Origin: Thermocrinis albus DSM 14484
GTDB taxonomy: Bacteria; Aquificota; Aquificia; Aquificales; Aquificaceae
DNA length: 64,000 nucleotides
Direction of reading: 5' to 3'
Assembly (NCBI RefSeq): GCF_000025605.1
Contig: NC_013894.1
Span: 481,529 to 545,528, forward strand
The translations under genes were made by a program, and so were the position numbers. The notes below the pieces were generated by a model. That model was given only the letters and a program-made list of their open reading frames with translations. It was not told where the DNA came from and searched no databases. Shown here piece by piece: positions 9,786 to 54,831 of this stretch (position 1 is the stretch's first letter; the number at the start of each line of letters is the position of its first letter).

Positions 9786-9870
9786 CTTATCCTCCTGCTC
9801 GGTGGTGATGGAGAAAGGTATCGGTATTCAGACACAGATACAGTACAGAAGGTGAAGGTGAAACATGGTG

Positions 9871-9953
9871 GGTGCCCAAATACCGCCTGCTGGGGATGGG
9901 CACCTTTAAAAGGGCGGGATACAAATACCCCAGCCCCGGACGGAGAGTTCGGG
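9871..9953 (+). ncRNA. structured RNA leader, copy 1 (triple-crossing pseudoknot plus hairpin)
   Basis: Stem A pairs 9871-9878 (GGTGCCCA) with 9897-9904. Stem B pairs 9883-9888 (CCGCCT) with 9912-9917 (one G-U). Stem C pairs 9889-9895 (GCTGGGG) with 9928-9934. Hairpin D pairs 9935-9941 with 9947-9953 around the loop GGAGA. The strand order A-B-C-A'-B'-C' means the three stems cross each other. Unpaired CAAATA occurs twice, before B and before C'. D ends 15 nt before the ATG at 9969, leaving room for a GAGGGGAG ribosome-binding site. Two further copies with the same plan lie at 32428-32511 and 54741-54831. I do not recognise the family. Confidence 0.8.
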
Positions 9954-9968
9954 TAAGAGGGGAGTGTC

Positions 9969-10271
9969 ATGGGGCTTTACGTGATGCTTACCAAGATATC
10001 ACCTTACGCTGTTAAGAATTTAGAGAAACTCAAAGAGATAGAGCAGGAGGCTGAGAGACTGATAGAGGAGAACTGTCCCGGTGTGAGATGGATAATGAAC
10101 TTGGTGGTATTTGGTCCCTATGATTATCTGGACATATTTGAGGCATCCAGTGACGAGGAGGCTGCCAAGGTGGCTATGATCATAAGATCCTTCGGACATG
10201 CCACCACCGAGACTTGGCCCGCCATAAAGTGGTCTGAGTTCAAGGATCTTTTGGGTAAAATAAAGGTATGA
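9969..10271 (+). CDS. GYD-domain protein
   Basis: A 100-residue protein whose whole length fits the GYD domain: the start YVMLTKISPYAVKNL, the central strand VVFGPYDYLDIFEA and an alpha/beta pattern like ferredoxin-fold dimeric proteins. The family has no settled biochemical function. It is notable that such an obscure gene shares the leader element found upstream of rpsT and ndk. It ends 10 nt before fliN of the chemotaxis operon and could be transcribed together with it. Confidence 0.75.
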   Translation: MGLYVMLTKISPYAVKNLEKLKEIEQEAERLIEENCPGVRWIMNLVVFGPYDYLDIFEASSDEEAAKVAMIIRSFGHATTETWPAIKWSEFKDLLGKIKV

Positions 10272-30699: not shown

Positions 30700-32184
30700 A
30701 TGGGACTTCTGAGATACAGCTTTTCCTTTTCGGTAGGTACACTCCTCAGTAGGGTCTTCGGTTACGTGAGGGATGCCGTCATCGCCTACCACTTTGGTGC
30801 GTCTTACGTAACGGATGCTTTCTTCGTAGCTTTTAGGCTACCCAACACCTTCAGAAGACTGTTGGGAGAAGGAGGTTTCAACGCCGCCTTCATCCCAGTT
30901 TATGCCCGGGAGATAAAGGAAGGAAGAGAAAGAGATTTTCTAAGCTCCACTTTCACTTACTTTACCTTGATCAGCTTTGTCATAACTCTGCTGGGAGTGG
31001 TTTTCTCAGAGGTGATCCTCAGCGTTCTGTCTCCTGGGTTAAGACACAGGCCTTACTTTGACCTCGCTGTCTTTATGGCACGTTGGCTTTTCTTGTACTT
31101 TTTGGCTGTCAGTTTATCCTCCTTCTTTATGGCGGTCCTCAACACGCGGGGTGTTTTCTTCGTTCCCGCCTTCGCTCAAGCCGTTTTCAACATAGTATCT
31201 TCCTTTATACTGGCCTTTGCTACCCACCTCTGGGGATACTACACCCTCATCGTAAGCACCCTGGTAGCAGGGTTGGCGCAAGTCCTCTTCCACCTTCCTT
31301 CTCTCCTATCTCAAAAGGTTCCTTTGGGAGTTTCTTTTCACCTGGATAAAGACGTGATCTTACTGGTAAAGAGGTTACTGCCTGCTACCGCAGGGTTCGG
31401 TGTTGCCCAGCTTTCTATGTTTGTAGATACTTTTCTAGCCTCCTTCCTTCATCAAGGTTCTATCTCCTACCTTTACTATGCCAACAGGATCTTTCAACTT
31501 CCCTTAGGTGTGGTGTCGGTGGGTGTGGCCAACTCCCTTCTCTCCGTTCTCTCAAGGGGTGGACACATAAAGAACAACACCACTTTAGCGGTCAGCGTAA
31601 TACTGGGACTCTCCTTACCATCAGCTGTGGGACTCCTACTACTGGCGGAACCTATCGTTTCTCTTCTGTACGGAAGGGGTAGGTTCTCTTCCCAGGATGT
31701 TATCGTGGCCTCCCACGTTCTTATGGCTTACAGTTTGGGGCTCGTCTTCTTCTCAGTACAGAAGGCGATAAGTAGCGTGTTCTTCGCAAGGGGAGACACT
31801 AAAACTCCCGTAATGGCTTCTCTGTTGGCGGTTATGTCGGAAGGAATCTTCGGTTATCTGTACGCCTTTCACCTTAAGTTGGGTGTGGTGGGTCTGGCAC
31901 TGGGAAATGCTACCTCCTCCCTCTTTGCTATAGGGTATCTCCTCGCTAAGGACCACACCATGATTCACTGGAAAACTCTGGCAGGTGTGGTTATAAGGTG
32001 CGGGGTGGCAAGTGCCGTCATGGGATACGTAGCCCACACACTGGCAAAGAATCTTCCCCACCCTGCCCTTGTTTTTGTGATACCCTTCTGCGCTTTTCTT
32101 TACATGGTGCTAGTCTTGCTACTATTTCCCGAGATTCTGAGAAGCCTGCGCAAGCGCTTTGTTGAGAAGTTGAGTAACCCTTGA
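30700..32184 (+). CDS. murJ: lipid II flippase MurJ (MviN)
   Basis: 494 residues, about 14 TM helices. The N-terminus has FSFSVGTLLSRVFGYVRDAV and the MurJ signature AFFVAFRLPNTFRRLLGEGGF-type segment; later GVAQLSMFVDTFLAS and FFARGDTKTPV. MurJ flips lipid II across the inner membrane for peptidoglycan synthesis. It starts 11 nt after the tRNA-Leu. Its last 63 nt overlap the 3' end of rpsT on the other strand. Confidence 0.95.
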   Translation: MGLLRYSFSFSVGTLLSRVFGYVRDAVIAYHFGASYVTDAFFVAFRLPNTFRRLLGEGGFNAAFIPVYAREIKEGRERDFLSSTFTYFTLISFVITLLGVVFSEVILSVLSPGLRHRPYFDLAVFMARWLFLYFLAVSLSSFFMAVLNTRGVFFVPAFAQAVFNIVSSFILAFATHLWGYYTLIVSTLVAGLAQVLFHLPSLLSQKVPLGVSFHLDKDVILLVKRLLPATAGFGVAQLSMFVDTFLASFLHQGSISYLYYANRIFQLPLGVVSVGVANSLLSVLSRGGHIKNNTTLAVSVILGLSLPSAVGLLLLAEPIVSLLYGRGRFSSQDVIVASHVLMAYSLGLVFFSVQKAISSVFFARGDTKTPVMASLLAVMSEGIFGYLYAFHLKLGVVGLALGNATSSLFAIGYLLAKDHTMIHWKTLAGVVIRCGVASAVMGYVAHTLAKNLPHPALVFVIPFCAFLYMVLVLLLFPEILRSLRKRFVEKLSNP

Positions 32185-32412
32185 AGCTCTTCTGGCAGCC
32201 TCGTTTTTGTGAATCACACCTTTGGAAGCTGTATGGTATATGATGGATATAACCTCGGGGAGAAAGGCTTTCGCCTCTTCCAGTTTGCCTTCCTGCACCA
32301 TCTTACGGAACTTTCTTATATAGGTCCTCATACGGGACAGGTGGTATCTGTTTCTTTCGCGCCTCTTGGCATCTCTCCTCATACGCTTAGCTGCTTGTCT
32401 CGTGTTGGGCAT
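32122..32412 (-). CDS. rpsT: ribosomal protein S20
   Basis: 96 residues, very basic and helical: start MPNTRQAAKRMRRDAKRRER, then MRTYIRKFRKMV, and the conserved GVIHKNEAARRASRVTQLL. It binds 16S rRNA in the small subunit. It has its own promoter (TATAAT at 32518-32523) and a leader consisting almost entirely of the structured element at 32428-32511. A GGAAGG lies directly against the ATG, an unusually tight spacing. The last 63 nt are antisense to the end of murJ. Confidence 0.96.
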   Translation of the reverse strand: MPNTRQAAKRMRRDAKRRERNRYHLSRMRTYIRKFRKMVQEGKLEEAKAFLPEVISIIYHTASKGVIHKNEAARRASRVTQLLNKALAQASQNLGK

Positions 32413-32427
32413 CCTTCCATGTCCGTA

Positions 32428-32511
32428 CCCGAACTCACCGTTCGGGGCTGGGGTATTTGTATACCGCCCTCCTCAGGGTGTCCATGCCCCAGCAGGCGGT
32501 ATTTGGACACC
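32428..32511 (-). ncRNA. structured RNA leader, copy 2 (upstream of rpsT)
   Basis: Read on the minus strand from 32511. Stem A: 32505-32511 (GGTGTCC) with 32477-32483. Stem B: 32494-32499 (CCGCCT) with 32464-32469. Stem C: 32487-32493 (GCTGGGG) with 32447-32453. Hairpin D: 32440-32446 with 32428-32434, loop GGTGA. Compared with copy 1, stem A has T-A where copy 1 has C-G, and D has A-T where copy 1 has G-T, keeping pairing. Both CAAATA single strands are conserved. D ends 15 nt before the rpsT ATG. The first base of stem A is the predicted transcription start, 6 nt after a TATAAT. Confidence 0.82.
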
Positions 32512-32517
32512 ATATAC

Positions 32518-32523
32518 ATTATA
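32518..32523 (-). promoter_or_regulatory. -10 box of rpsT
   Basis: On the minus strand a perfect TATAAT is followed by GTATAT and then by the first base of the structured leader (32511), so the RNA should start on or next to that base. No convincing -35 box is visible 16-18 bp upstream. The box begins 6 nt after the stop codon of the ABC permease gene. Confidence 0.6.
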
Positions 32524-54301: not shown

Positions 54302-54724
54302 TTAACACAGCTCAAGGTTTGAGAACACAAAGGGGATTTCGTAAGCTGCAGACTCTAACGAATCAGAAGCATGGACAGCGTTTTTGCCCTTATCGGTACC
54401 AAACAGGGCTCTTATGGACATAGGTGCCACGCGCCTTGCCTCCTCACTGTCGGTAGGTCCTATAATCTCCCTCACACGTTTTACCGCGTTTTCTCCTTCC
54501 AGCAGAATGGCCACAACTGGTCCTGAGGTCATGAACTCCACCAGCTCGTTGTAGAAAGGCCTCCCTTTGTGTACCGCGTAGAACTCTCTGGCCTGTTCCA
54601 CCGTAAACCTAAACATCTTAAGGGCTCTTATCCTGAAGCCTTCCGTTATGAATCGGTCCAGTATCTTACCTACAGCGCCTTTCTCCACAGCATCGGGTTT
54701 GATGATGACCAGCGTTCTTTCCAT
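54302..54724 (-). CDS. ndk: nucleoside diphosphate kinase
   Basis: 140 residues. The start ERTLVIIKPDAVEKGAVG and the active-site His in KNAVHASDSLESA are as expected; GPVVAILLEGENAV is also present. It balances NTP pools by phosphate exchange. The 105 nt in front of the gene consist almost wholly of the third copy of the structured leader; AAGGTG serves as ribosome-binding site. Confidence 0.97.
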   Translation of the reverse strand: MERTLVIIKPDAVEKGAVGKILDRFITEGFRIRALKMFRFTVEQAREFYAVHKGRPFYNELVEFMTSGPVVAILLEGENAVKRVREIIGPTDSEEARRVAPMSIRALFGTDKGKNAVHASDSLESAAYEIPFVFSNLELC

Positions 54725-54740
54725 GTTTCACACCTTATTA

Positions 54741-54831
54741 CCCGAGCTTATGTATTGGCTCGGGTGCCGGGCTATTTATATCCCGCCTGTAAAGGGTGTC
54801 CCACACCCGGCAGGCGGCATTGGAACACCCT
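54741..54831 (-). ncRNA. structured RNA leader, copy 3 (upstream of ndk)
   Basis: Read on the minus strand from 54831. Stem A: 54822-54831 (AGGGTGTTCC) with 54793-54802, 10 bp including one G-T. Stem B: 54812-54817 (CCGCCT) with 54783-54788. Stem C: 54805-54811 (GCCGGGT) with 54766-54772. Hairpin D: 54758-54764 with 54741-54747, extended by an A-T pair, with a 10-nt loop. The sequence differs much more than copies 1 and 2 do, yet all four stems are kept: in C a T-A becomes C-G, in D A-T becomes G-C. D ends 16 nt before the ATG. The element begins inside the stop codon of the upstream gene. No -10 box is visible here, so it may be part of the ATP synthase transcript. Confidence 0.82.

Follow-up and report, generated by a model that had tools for sequence, protein, structure and literature searches.

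Structured leaders in the window

Three copies of one structured RNA leader, each followed by a gene, lie in the window, i.e., the whole 64,000-nucleotide stretch of the Thermocrinis albus genome that was analysed. The features are as follows (SD, Shine-Dalgarno):

9870..9905, plus strand: hairpin P1 of copy 1 (strands 9870-9878 with 9897-9905), with P2a (9883-9887) and P3a (9889-9895) in its loop
9913..9934, plus strand: P2b (9913-9917), conserved strand ATACAAATA (9919-9927) and P3b (9928-9934) of copy 1
9935..9953, plus strand: hairpin D of copy 1
9954..9968, plus strand: linker of copy 1, 15 nt, with SD-like GAGGGGAG at 9957-9964
9969..10271, plus strand: gene for a GYD-domain protein (PF08734, 1.9e-26), 3' of copy 1
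32477..32523, minus strand: TATAAT (32523-32518) and P1 (32511-32504 with 32484-32477) of copy 2, 6 nt apart
32447..32470, minus strand: P2b, conserved strand and P3b of copy 2
32428..32446, minus strand: hairpin D of copy 2, the sequence of which recurs as the D hairpin before metE and hfq1 elsewhere in the genome
32413..32427, minus strand: linker of copy 2, 15 nt, with SD-like GGAAGG
32122..32412, minus strand: rpsT (30S ribosomal protein S20; TIGR00029, 6.3e-27), 3' of copy 2
54793..54831, minus strand: hairpin P1 of copy 3 (54831-54821 with 54803-54793), beginning right at the upstream gene's stop codon
54766..54788, minus strand: P2b, conserved strand and P3b of copy 3
54741..54764, minus strand: hairpin D of copy 3
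54725..54740, minus strand: linker of copy 3 (TAATAAGGTGTGAAAC), 16 nt, with SD-like AAGG
54302..54724, minus strand: ndk (nucleoside-diphosphate kinase; NF001908, 1e-51), 3' of copy 3

The distance from the last base of hairpin D to the ATG is thus 15 nt (9954-9968), 15 nt (32427-32413) and 16 nt (54740-54725), over linkers that bear no relation to one another; this fixed spacing was the point of departure of the first-pass annotation and is borne out in all positions and lengths. A side observation concerns copy 1, where single-strand folding of 9934-9975 (minimum free energy -17.2) pairs a strand of D with the start-codon region, a possible alternative to hairpin D, so that D in this copy rests on comparison and not on energy. 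The z-scores from single-strand folding of the D region are modest only.

Copy number and spacing

The Thermocrinis albus genome (1,500,577 bases in one contig) contains 35 copies of the leader, each just upstream of a gene, the same count being obtained with two different patterns and with a sequence profile. The pattern searches fixed part of the P2 and P3 letters, so that badly decayed copies could escape them; the profile search, which tolerated deviations, returned scores of 40-63 bits and nothing weaker up to E=10, i.e., no decayed copy was seen among the 35. Measurement of the D-to-start distance in homologous copies, the check proposed in the first-pass annotation, gave 13-16 nt for 29 of the 35 copies under a mechanical rule (some start codons being ambiguous), and three of the six exceptions fit with a neighbouring start codon. 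Across many genomes, 82 of 104 copies free of TnpB have this distance at 12-17 nt. The MAD of the distance in the TnpB-free copies is 1 nt from D vs. 3.5 nt from P3, and 82 of 98 of them fall within 13-17 nt, as compared with a mean of 28 and a maximum of 47 in 20,000 shuffles of D length. In the same 98 copies, the P3-to-start distance grows with D length (r=0.79), whereas the D-to-start distance is not appreciably correlated with it (r=0.10). The 3' side of D is the reference point of the spacing, and chance is excluded. The few copies without D (L120, L143, L162 (fusA), L148, L170, and the rplU-like L137), in which P3 lies ~16-20 nt before the ATG, indicate that the rule is that the structure ends next to the SD, not that D is needed.

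Leader anatomy and sequence relationships

The leader begins with P1, a hairpin of 7-13 bp, the loop of which carries P2a (RCCGCC) and P3a (GCNGGG). Their downstream pairing partners, P2b and P3b, flank the conserved strand ATAYAAATA; P1, P2 and P3 are mutually crossing helices of a three-helix pseudoknot, followed by D, a hairpin of free sequence. Covariation in P2/P3, most letters of which are fixed by the search pattern, comprises changes on both sides in 42 cells, a level reached in 0 of 500 shuffles. P1 lies outside the search pattern, and among 117 solo copies (those without TnpB) it has 81 different 5' strands; it forms at least 7 bp in 96.6% of these copies vs. 10% with swapped partners. 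Since the MAFFT alignment puts the 3' strand P1b out of register owing to loop length, P1 was scored per sequence and on a gap-free set of htpX leaders. Upstream of P1, a TATAAT-like box is found at 5-15 nt in approximately 11 of the 35 copies, and in many others the preceding gene's stop codon lies 0-8 nt before P1.

Cores are uniform inside a genome (GGCGCGTTAC in Thermocrinis albus, GGCGCGGTAT in G019), which points to gene conversion or to a shared trans factor. D varies between copies with near-identical cores. The rpsT (32428-32511) and metE (L013) copies are identical from P1 through the end of D and unrelated outside, and hfq1 (L001) has the same D, suggesting either gene conversion or that a copy spread recently from one locus to another. 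Rfam gave no relevant family match at gathering or permissive thresholds for the window, L152, L126 and others, and nothing of this kind appears in the section consulted of the Aquificales non-coding RNA list of PMC4227106.

The leader RNA in IS607/TnpB elements

Among the matches listed in a scan of prokaryote genomes, the leader RNA occurs not only in Aquificota but also in thermophilic Clostridia, a Thermodesulfobacteriaceae MAG and further lineages. It has two contexts: it stands alone as a solo leader, or it overlaps or abuts the 3' end of a TnpB-related gene (TIGR01765, TIGR01766, with matches in L126 and L152). TnpB-linked copies carry CCTGGGGCAGGGNCTATG or a variant 5' of P1 and the terminus GGGTAACCAGG or a variant; similarity between copies stops at CCAGG, and the start codon is mostly 4-9 nt farther on. 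By position, this RNA would be the 3' part of the TnpB guide-RNA scaffold. A closing helix CCTGG/CCAGG that would mask the AGG is suggested in the TnpB-linked copies, clear covariation being absent.

One locus (L117) is a complete element, in which an ORF for an IS607 serine transposase (NF033518, 1.5e-67; PF00239, PF00376) with a MerR-type N-terminal domain is followed by a TnpB reading frame. Filled and empty sites show a junction GG without duplication of the target, as is characteristic of this family, and left flanks are GGAGG or a close variant in 11 of 12 cases. Transposition of the IS200/IS605 type, an earlier candidate, was dropped in favour of IS607 once the serine transposase turned up.

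Three TnpB-linked copies (L122, L165, L190) lie away from start codons; in one of them (L165, Caldanaerobacter subterraneus), the element, near position 1260, adjoins on its 3' side GAAAGAGCCCGATGAAACCCGGCAACC, which by eye resembles a SAM-I riboswitch core and not a start codon, an insertion outside an SD. A TnpB-linked copy that looks complete (L245) was also noted on a contig of 172 kb with a viral classification (IMGVR_UViG_3300022514_000030). Two Clostridia genomes differ at a RadA-like gene, which bears a TnpB-linked copy in the first and a solo leader in the second (L155, L173), possibly a before/after pair.

Insertion into Shine-Dalgarno sites

The insertion site can be read directly from filled and empty versions of the same locus. 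Upstream of a trpD-like gene, the empty site AAGGAGG|AGAGGTATG (G024 and G008) corresponds to the filled site AAGGAGG|TTAGCAACAGTTGA...TnpB...GGGTAACCAGG|AGAGGTATG (G017). The fabI pair is AAAGGAGG|TAATTTATG (empty) vs. CCAGG|TAATTTATG (filled), and the rplM pair is GAGGAGG|GACCATG vs. CCAGG|GACCATG, the spacers being identical within all three pairs; four further pairs are consistent, at an lpd-like gene, atpA, a secG-like gene and one other site (gene names assigned by eye). The IS607/TnpB element lands directly 3' of the GG of an SD GGAGG, without target duplication, and its CCAGG end takes over the SD position a few nucleotides before the ATG. This agrees with the GG overlap and absence of target duplication described for IS607 (PMC4058570) and with the TAMs AGGAG or GAGGG of other IS607 TnpBs (PMC11061315). 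The D-to-ATG distance is thus approximately the sum of 8 nt of transposon end and the native SD-to-ATG spacing because of where the element inserts.

These observations divide the functional proposal of the first-pass annotation, which had read the spacing as the reach of an initiating ribosome and as a sign of translation initiation rather than of a mobile repeat. The tie to initiation holds, and a present role in translation or expression is indirectly favoured by the structure kept at htpX, the lack of decayed copies and the trimming to P1 beside promoters or stop codons, but the origin is the end of a mobile element, and the spacing is set not by ribosome docking alone but by the insertion site together with the element end (D plus TAACCAGG).

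Solo leaders in Thermocrinis albus and its congeners

No cognate TnpB was found in the Thermocrinis albus genome; the five TnpBs present there are of another type, with TTCAC ends. Those five near-identical genes (L251-L255; G000:C1 331569, 350814, 638908, 725064, 797004), each followed by GGGGTAGTTCAC, would form an active-looking IS200/IS605-like family of their own. The leader is absent from all six congeners examined. In one of them (G003), 32 orthologs lacking the leader have GGAGG in 30 cases (counted by eye) vs. 14 of 69 background genes (with approximate starts). Some solo copies retain traces of the insertion: GGAGG is still present 4 nt upstream of P1 in the rpoA copy, and the exact terminus TAACCAGG is kept before a korB-like gene, a small unknown gene and nuoB. 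The terminal AGG serves as the SD in many copies, and the SD left in solo copies is short in most. The left-end motif AACAGTTGA of the transposon was seen beside none of the solo copies, nor was a full element found at any locus that is solo in Thermocrinis albus.

The downstream genes include ribosomal and translation genes (S11, S18, S20, S21, L25, L32, IF-3, EF-Ts) as well as those for RpoA, Rho, two Hfq, FtsH, Ndk, NuoB, GlyA, IlvC, pyrophosphatase, thioredoxin and ferredoxin-oxidoreductase subunits, a set that may partly reflect GGAGG sites being the target. A ligand riboswitch or ribosomal-protein autoregulation was rejected, the same RNA heading unrelated genes with no shared pathway.

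Ten species of one genus have the leader at a gene named by eye as htpX, with no TnpB beside it. In this gap-free set, 97.8% of P1 cells are paired and seven of nine pairs are altered on both sides. These compensatory changes mean that the structure is selected, and from the sequences there is purifying selection on leader RNA structure at this one orthologous site.

Discussion

We consider it very probable that the leader is the right end of an IS607 element inserted 3' of an SD, and that the ~35 trimmed ends in Thermocrinis albus are now selected as cis-acting expression elements. The right end comprises, judged by position, the 3' portion of a putative guide-RNA scaffold (P1/P2/P3, then D) and the terminus TAACCAGG. 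The element inserts directly 3' of the GG in GGAGG, with the CCAGG end becoming the new SD and the native spacer and start codon following, so that D ends ~15 nt before the start. Some 35 such ends are left without TnpB and would have been trimmed to P1; the filled and empty sites establish the origin, and the route of loss and the trimming step are our reconstruction. The ends would thereby have become structured leaders, mostly with a weaker SD, in front of many genes of translation, transcription and central metabolism, where selection would keep them as cis-acting elements. The most likely mode may be that a rigid structure lies beside the ribosome-binding site and presents it, and/or that the mRNA 5' end is protected; the retained leader would accordingly aid translation initiation or mRNA stability.

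The principal challenge to this account is that the solo leaders might be inert scars of decayed transposons, fixed as the sole carriers of an SD, with a functionless pseudoknot. Origin alone would account for the spacing, the terminal AGG is indeed the SD in many copies, and the gene set may merely mirror GGAGG-bearing genes; this reading is nevertheless unlikely, considering the compensatory substitutions in P1 across the ten species with an htpX leader, the lack of decay in all 35 copies, and the loss of everything 5' of P1 with P1 itself intact. Selection at htpX, the absence of decayed copies and the loss of all sequence 5' of P1 together argue for exaptation. Improbable to a further degree is that the solo units are MITE-like non-autonomous elements moved in trans by the IS607 transposase, with P1 as their left end: 35 copies here as against none in six congeners, and the rpsT/metE identity from P1 to D amid different surroundings, would fit such movement, but the left-end motif AACAGTTGA is missing next to solos, D differs among near-identical cores, and gene conversion would also yield blocks of identity.

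Two readings that place the leader first in the host appear very improbable. Capture of a pre-existing host leader by TnpB elements as their right end would be compatible with solo leaders in several phyla, some at orthologous genes, yet the solos are patchy and absent from all congeners, several retain the transposon terminus TAACCAGG, and every TnpB-linked copy has the RNA where TnpB guide RNAs lie. The least probable alternative is a native translational-control leader (riboswitch, protein-binding or ribosome-docking), spaced by ribosome geometry and having no link to mobile elements. Tight spacing over free sequence and the structure kept at orthologous genes speak for it; the same RNA, however, ends IS607/TnpB elements, the filled and empty sites are SD insertions, congeners have plain SDs, and the downstream genes share no common pathway.

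Beyond the preferred reading of exapted IS607 ends, a more ambitious extension, which we regard as doubtful though worth stating, is that the shared, structurally maintained scaffold leader forms a genome-wide cis-regulon, coevolving in each genome with a trans factor (a host RNA-binding protein, a ribosome feature or a TnpB RNP being candidates), which would jointly set the translation of dozens of core genes in place of ordinary SD initiation.

Overall, the SD-like TAMs published for IS607 TnpBs can be linked by these results to a strategy of landing in a ribosome-binding site and re-supplying one, by which an element can sit before important genes and leave their expression possible. The results also present an apparent exaptation, in which a guide-RNA scaffold has come to head the mRNAs of many core genes and for which the leader-free congeners are natural controls, and they make translation start from structured leaders with weak SDs in thermophiles directly testable. 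Within the searchable literature (subscription papers mostly falling outside it), we found no description of SD-targeted IS607 insertion or of solo guide scaffolds as leaders.

Structured leaders of ribosomal protein genes and riboswitches likewise place a pseudoknotted 5' leader beside the ribosome-binding site; here, in contrast, one RNA derived from a transposon end precedes 35 unrelated genes. The closest known system is the IS607 TnpB with a RAGATH-18-derived reRNA (PMC11061315), which shares the IS607 family, a guide RNA 3' of tnpB with stem-loops and two pseudoknots, and an SD-like TAM, and the main text of which mentions neither Shine-Dalgarno sequences nor start codons. Our leader RNA differs in matching no Rfam family (RAGATH-18 itself was not matched in the window, L152, L126 and others), in the TIGR01765/TIGR01766 kind of its protein, and in the solo state of most Thermocrinis albus copies. 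Described IS607 insertion sequences (PMC4058570, PMC6188088) have the same serine transposase with MerR-type N-terminal domain, junction GG and lack of target duplication, but are reported to show little target pattern, whereas here insertions cluster 3' of GGAGG before start codons. Finally, TldR and other reused TnpB-derived proteins (PMC13418256) also represent TnpB-derived machinery recruited for gene regulation; in TldR, protein and guide are kept as a repressor, whereas in the leaders described here the RNA end alone, without a cognate TnpB, is proposed to act in cis.
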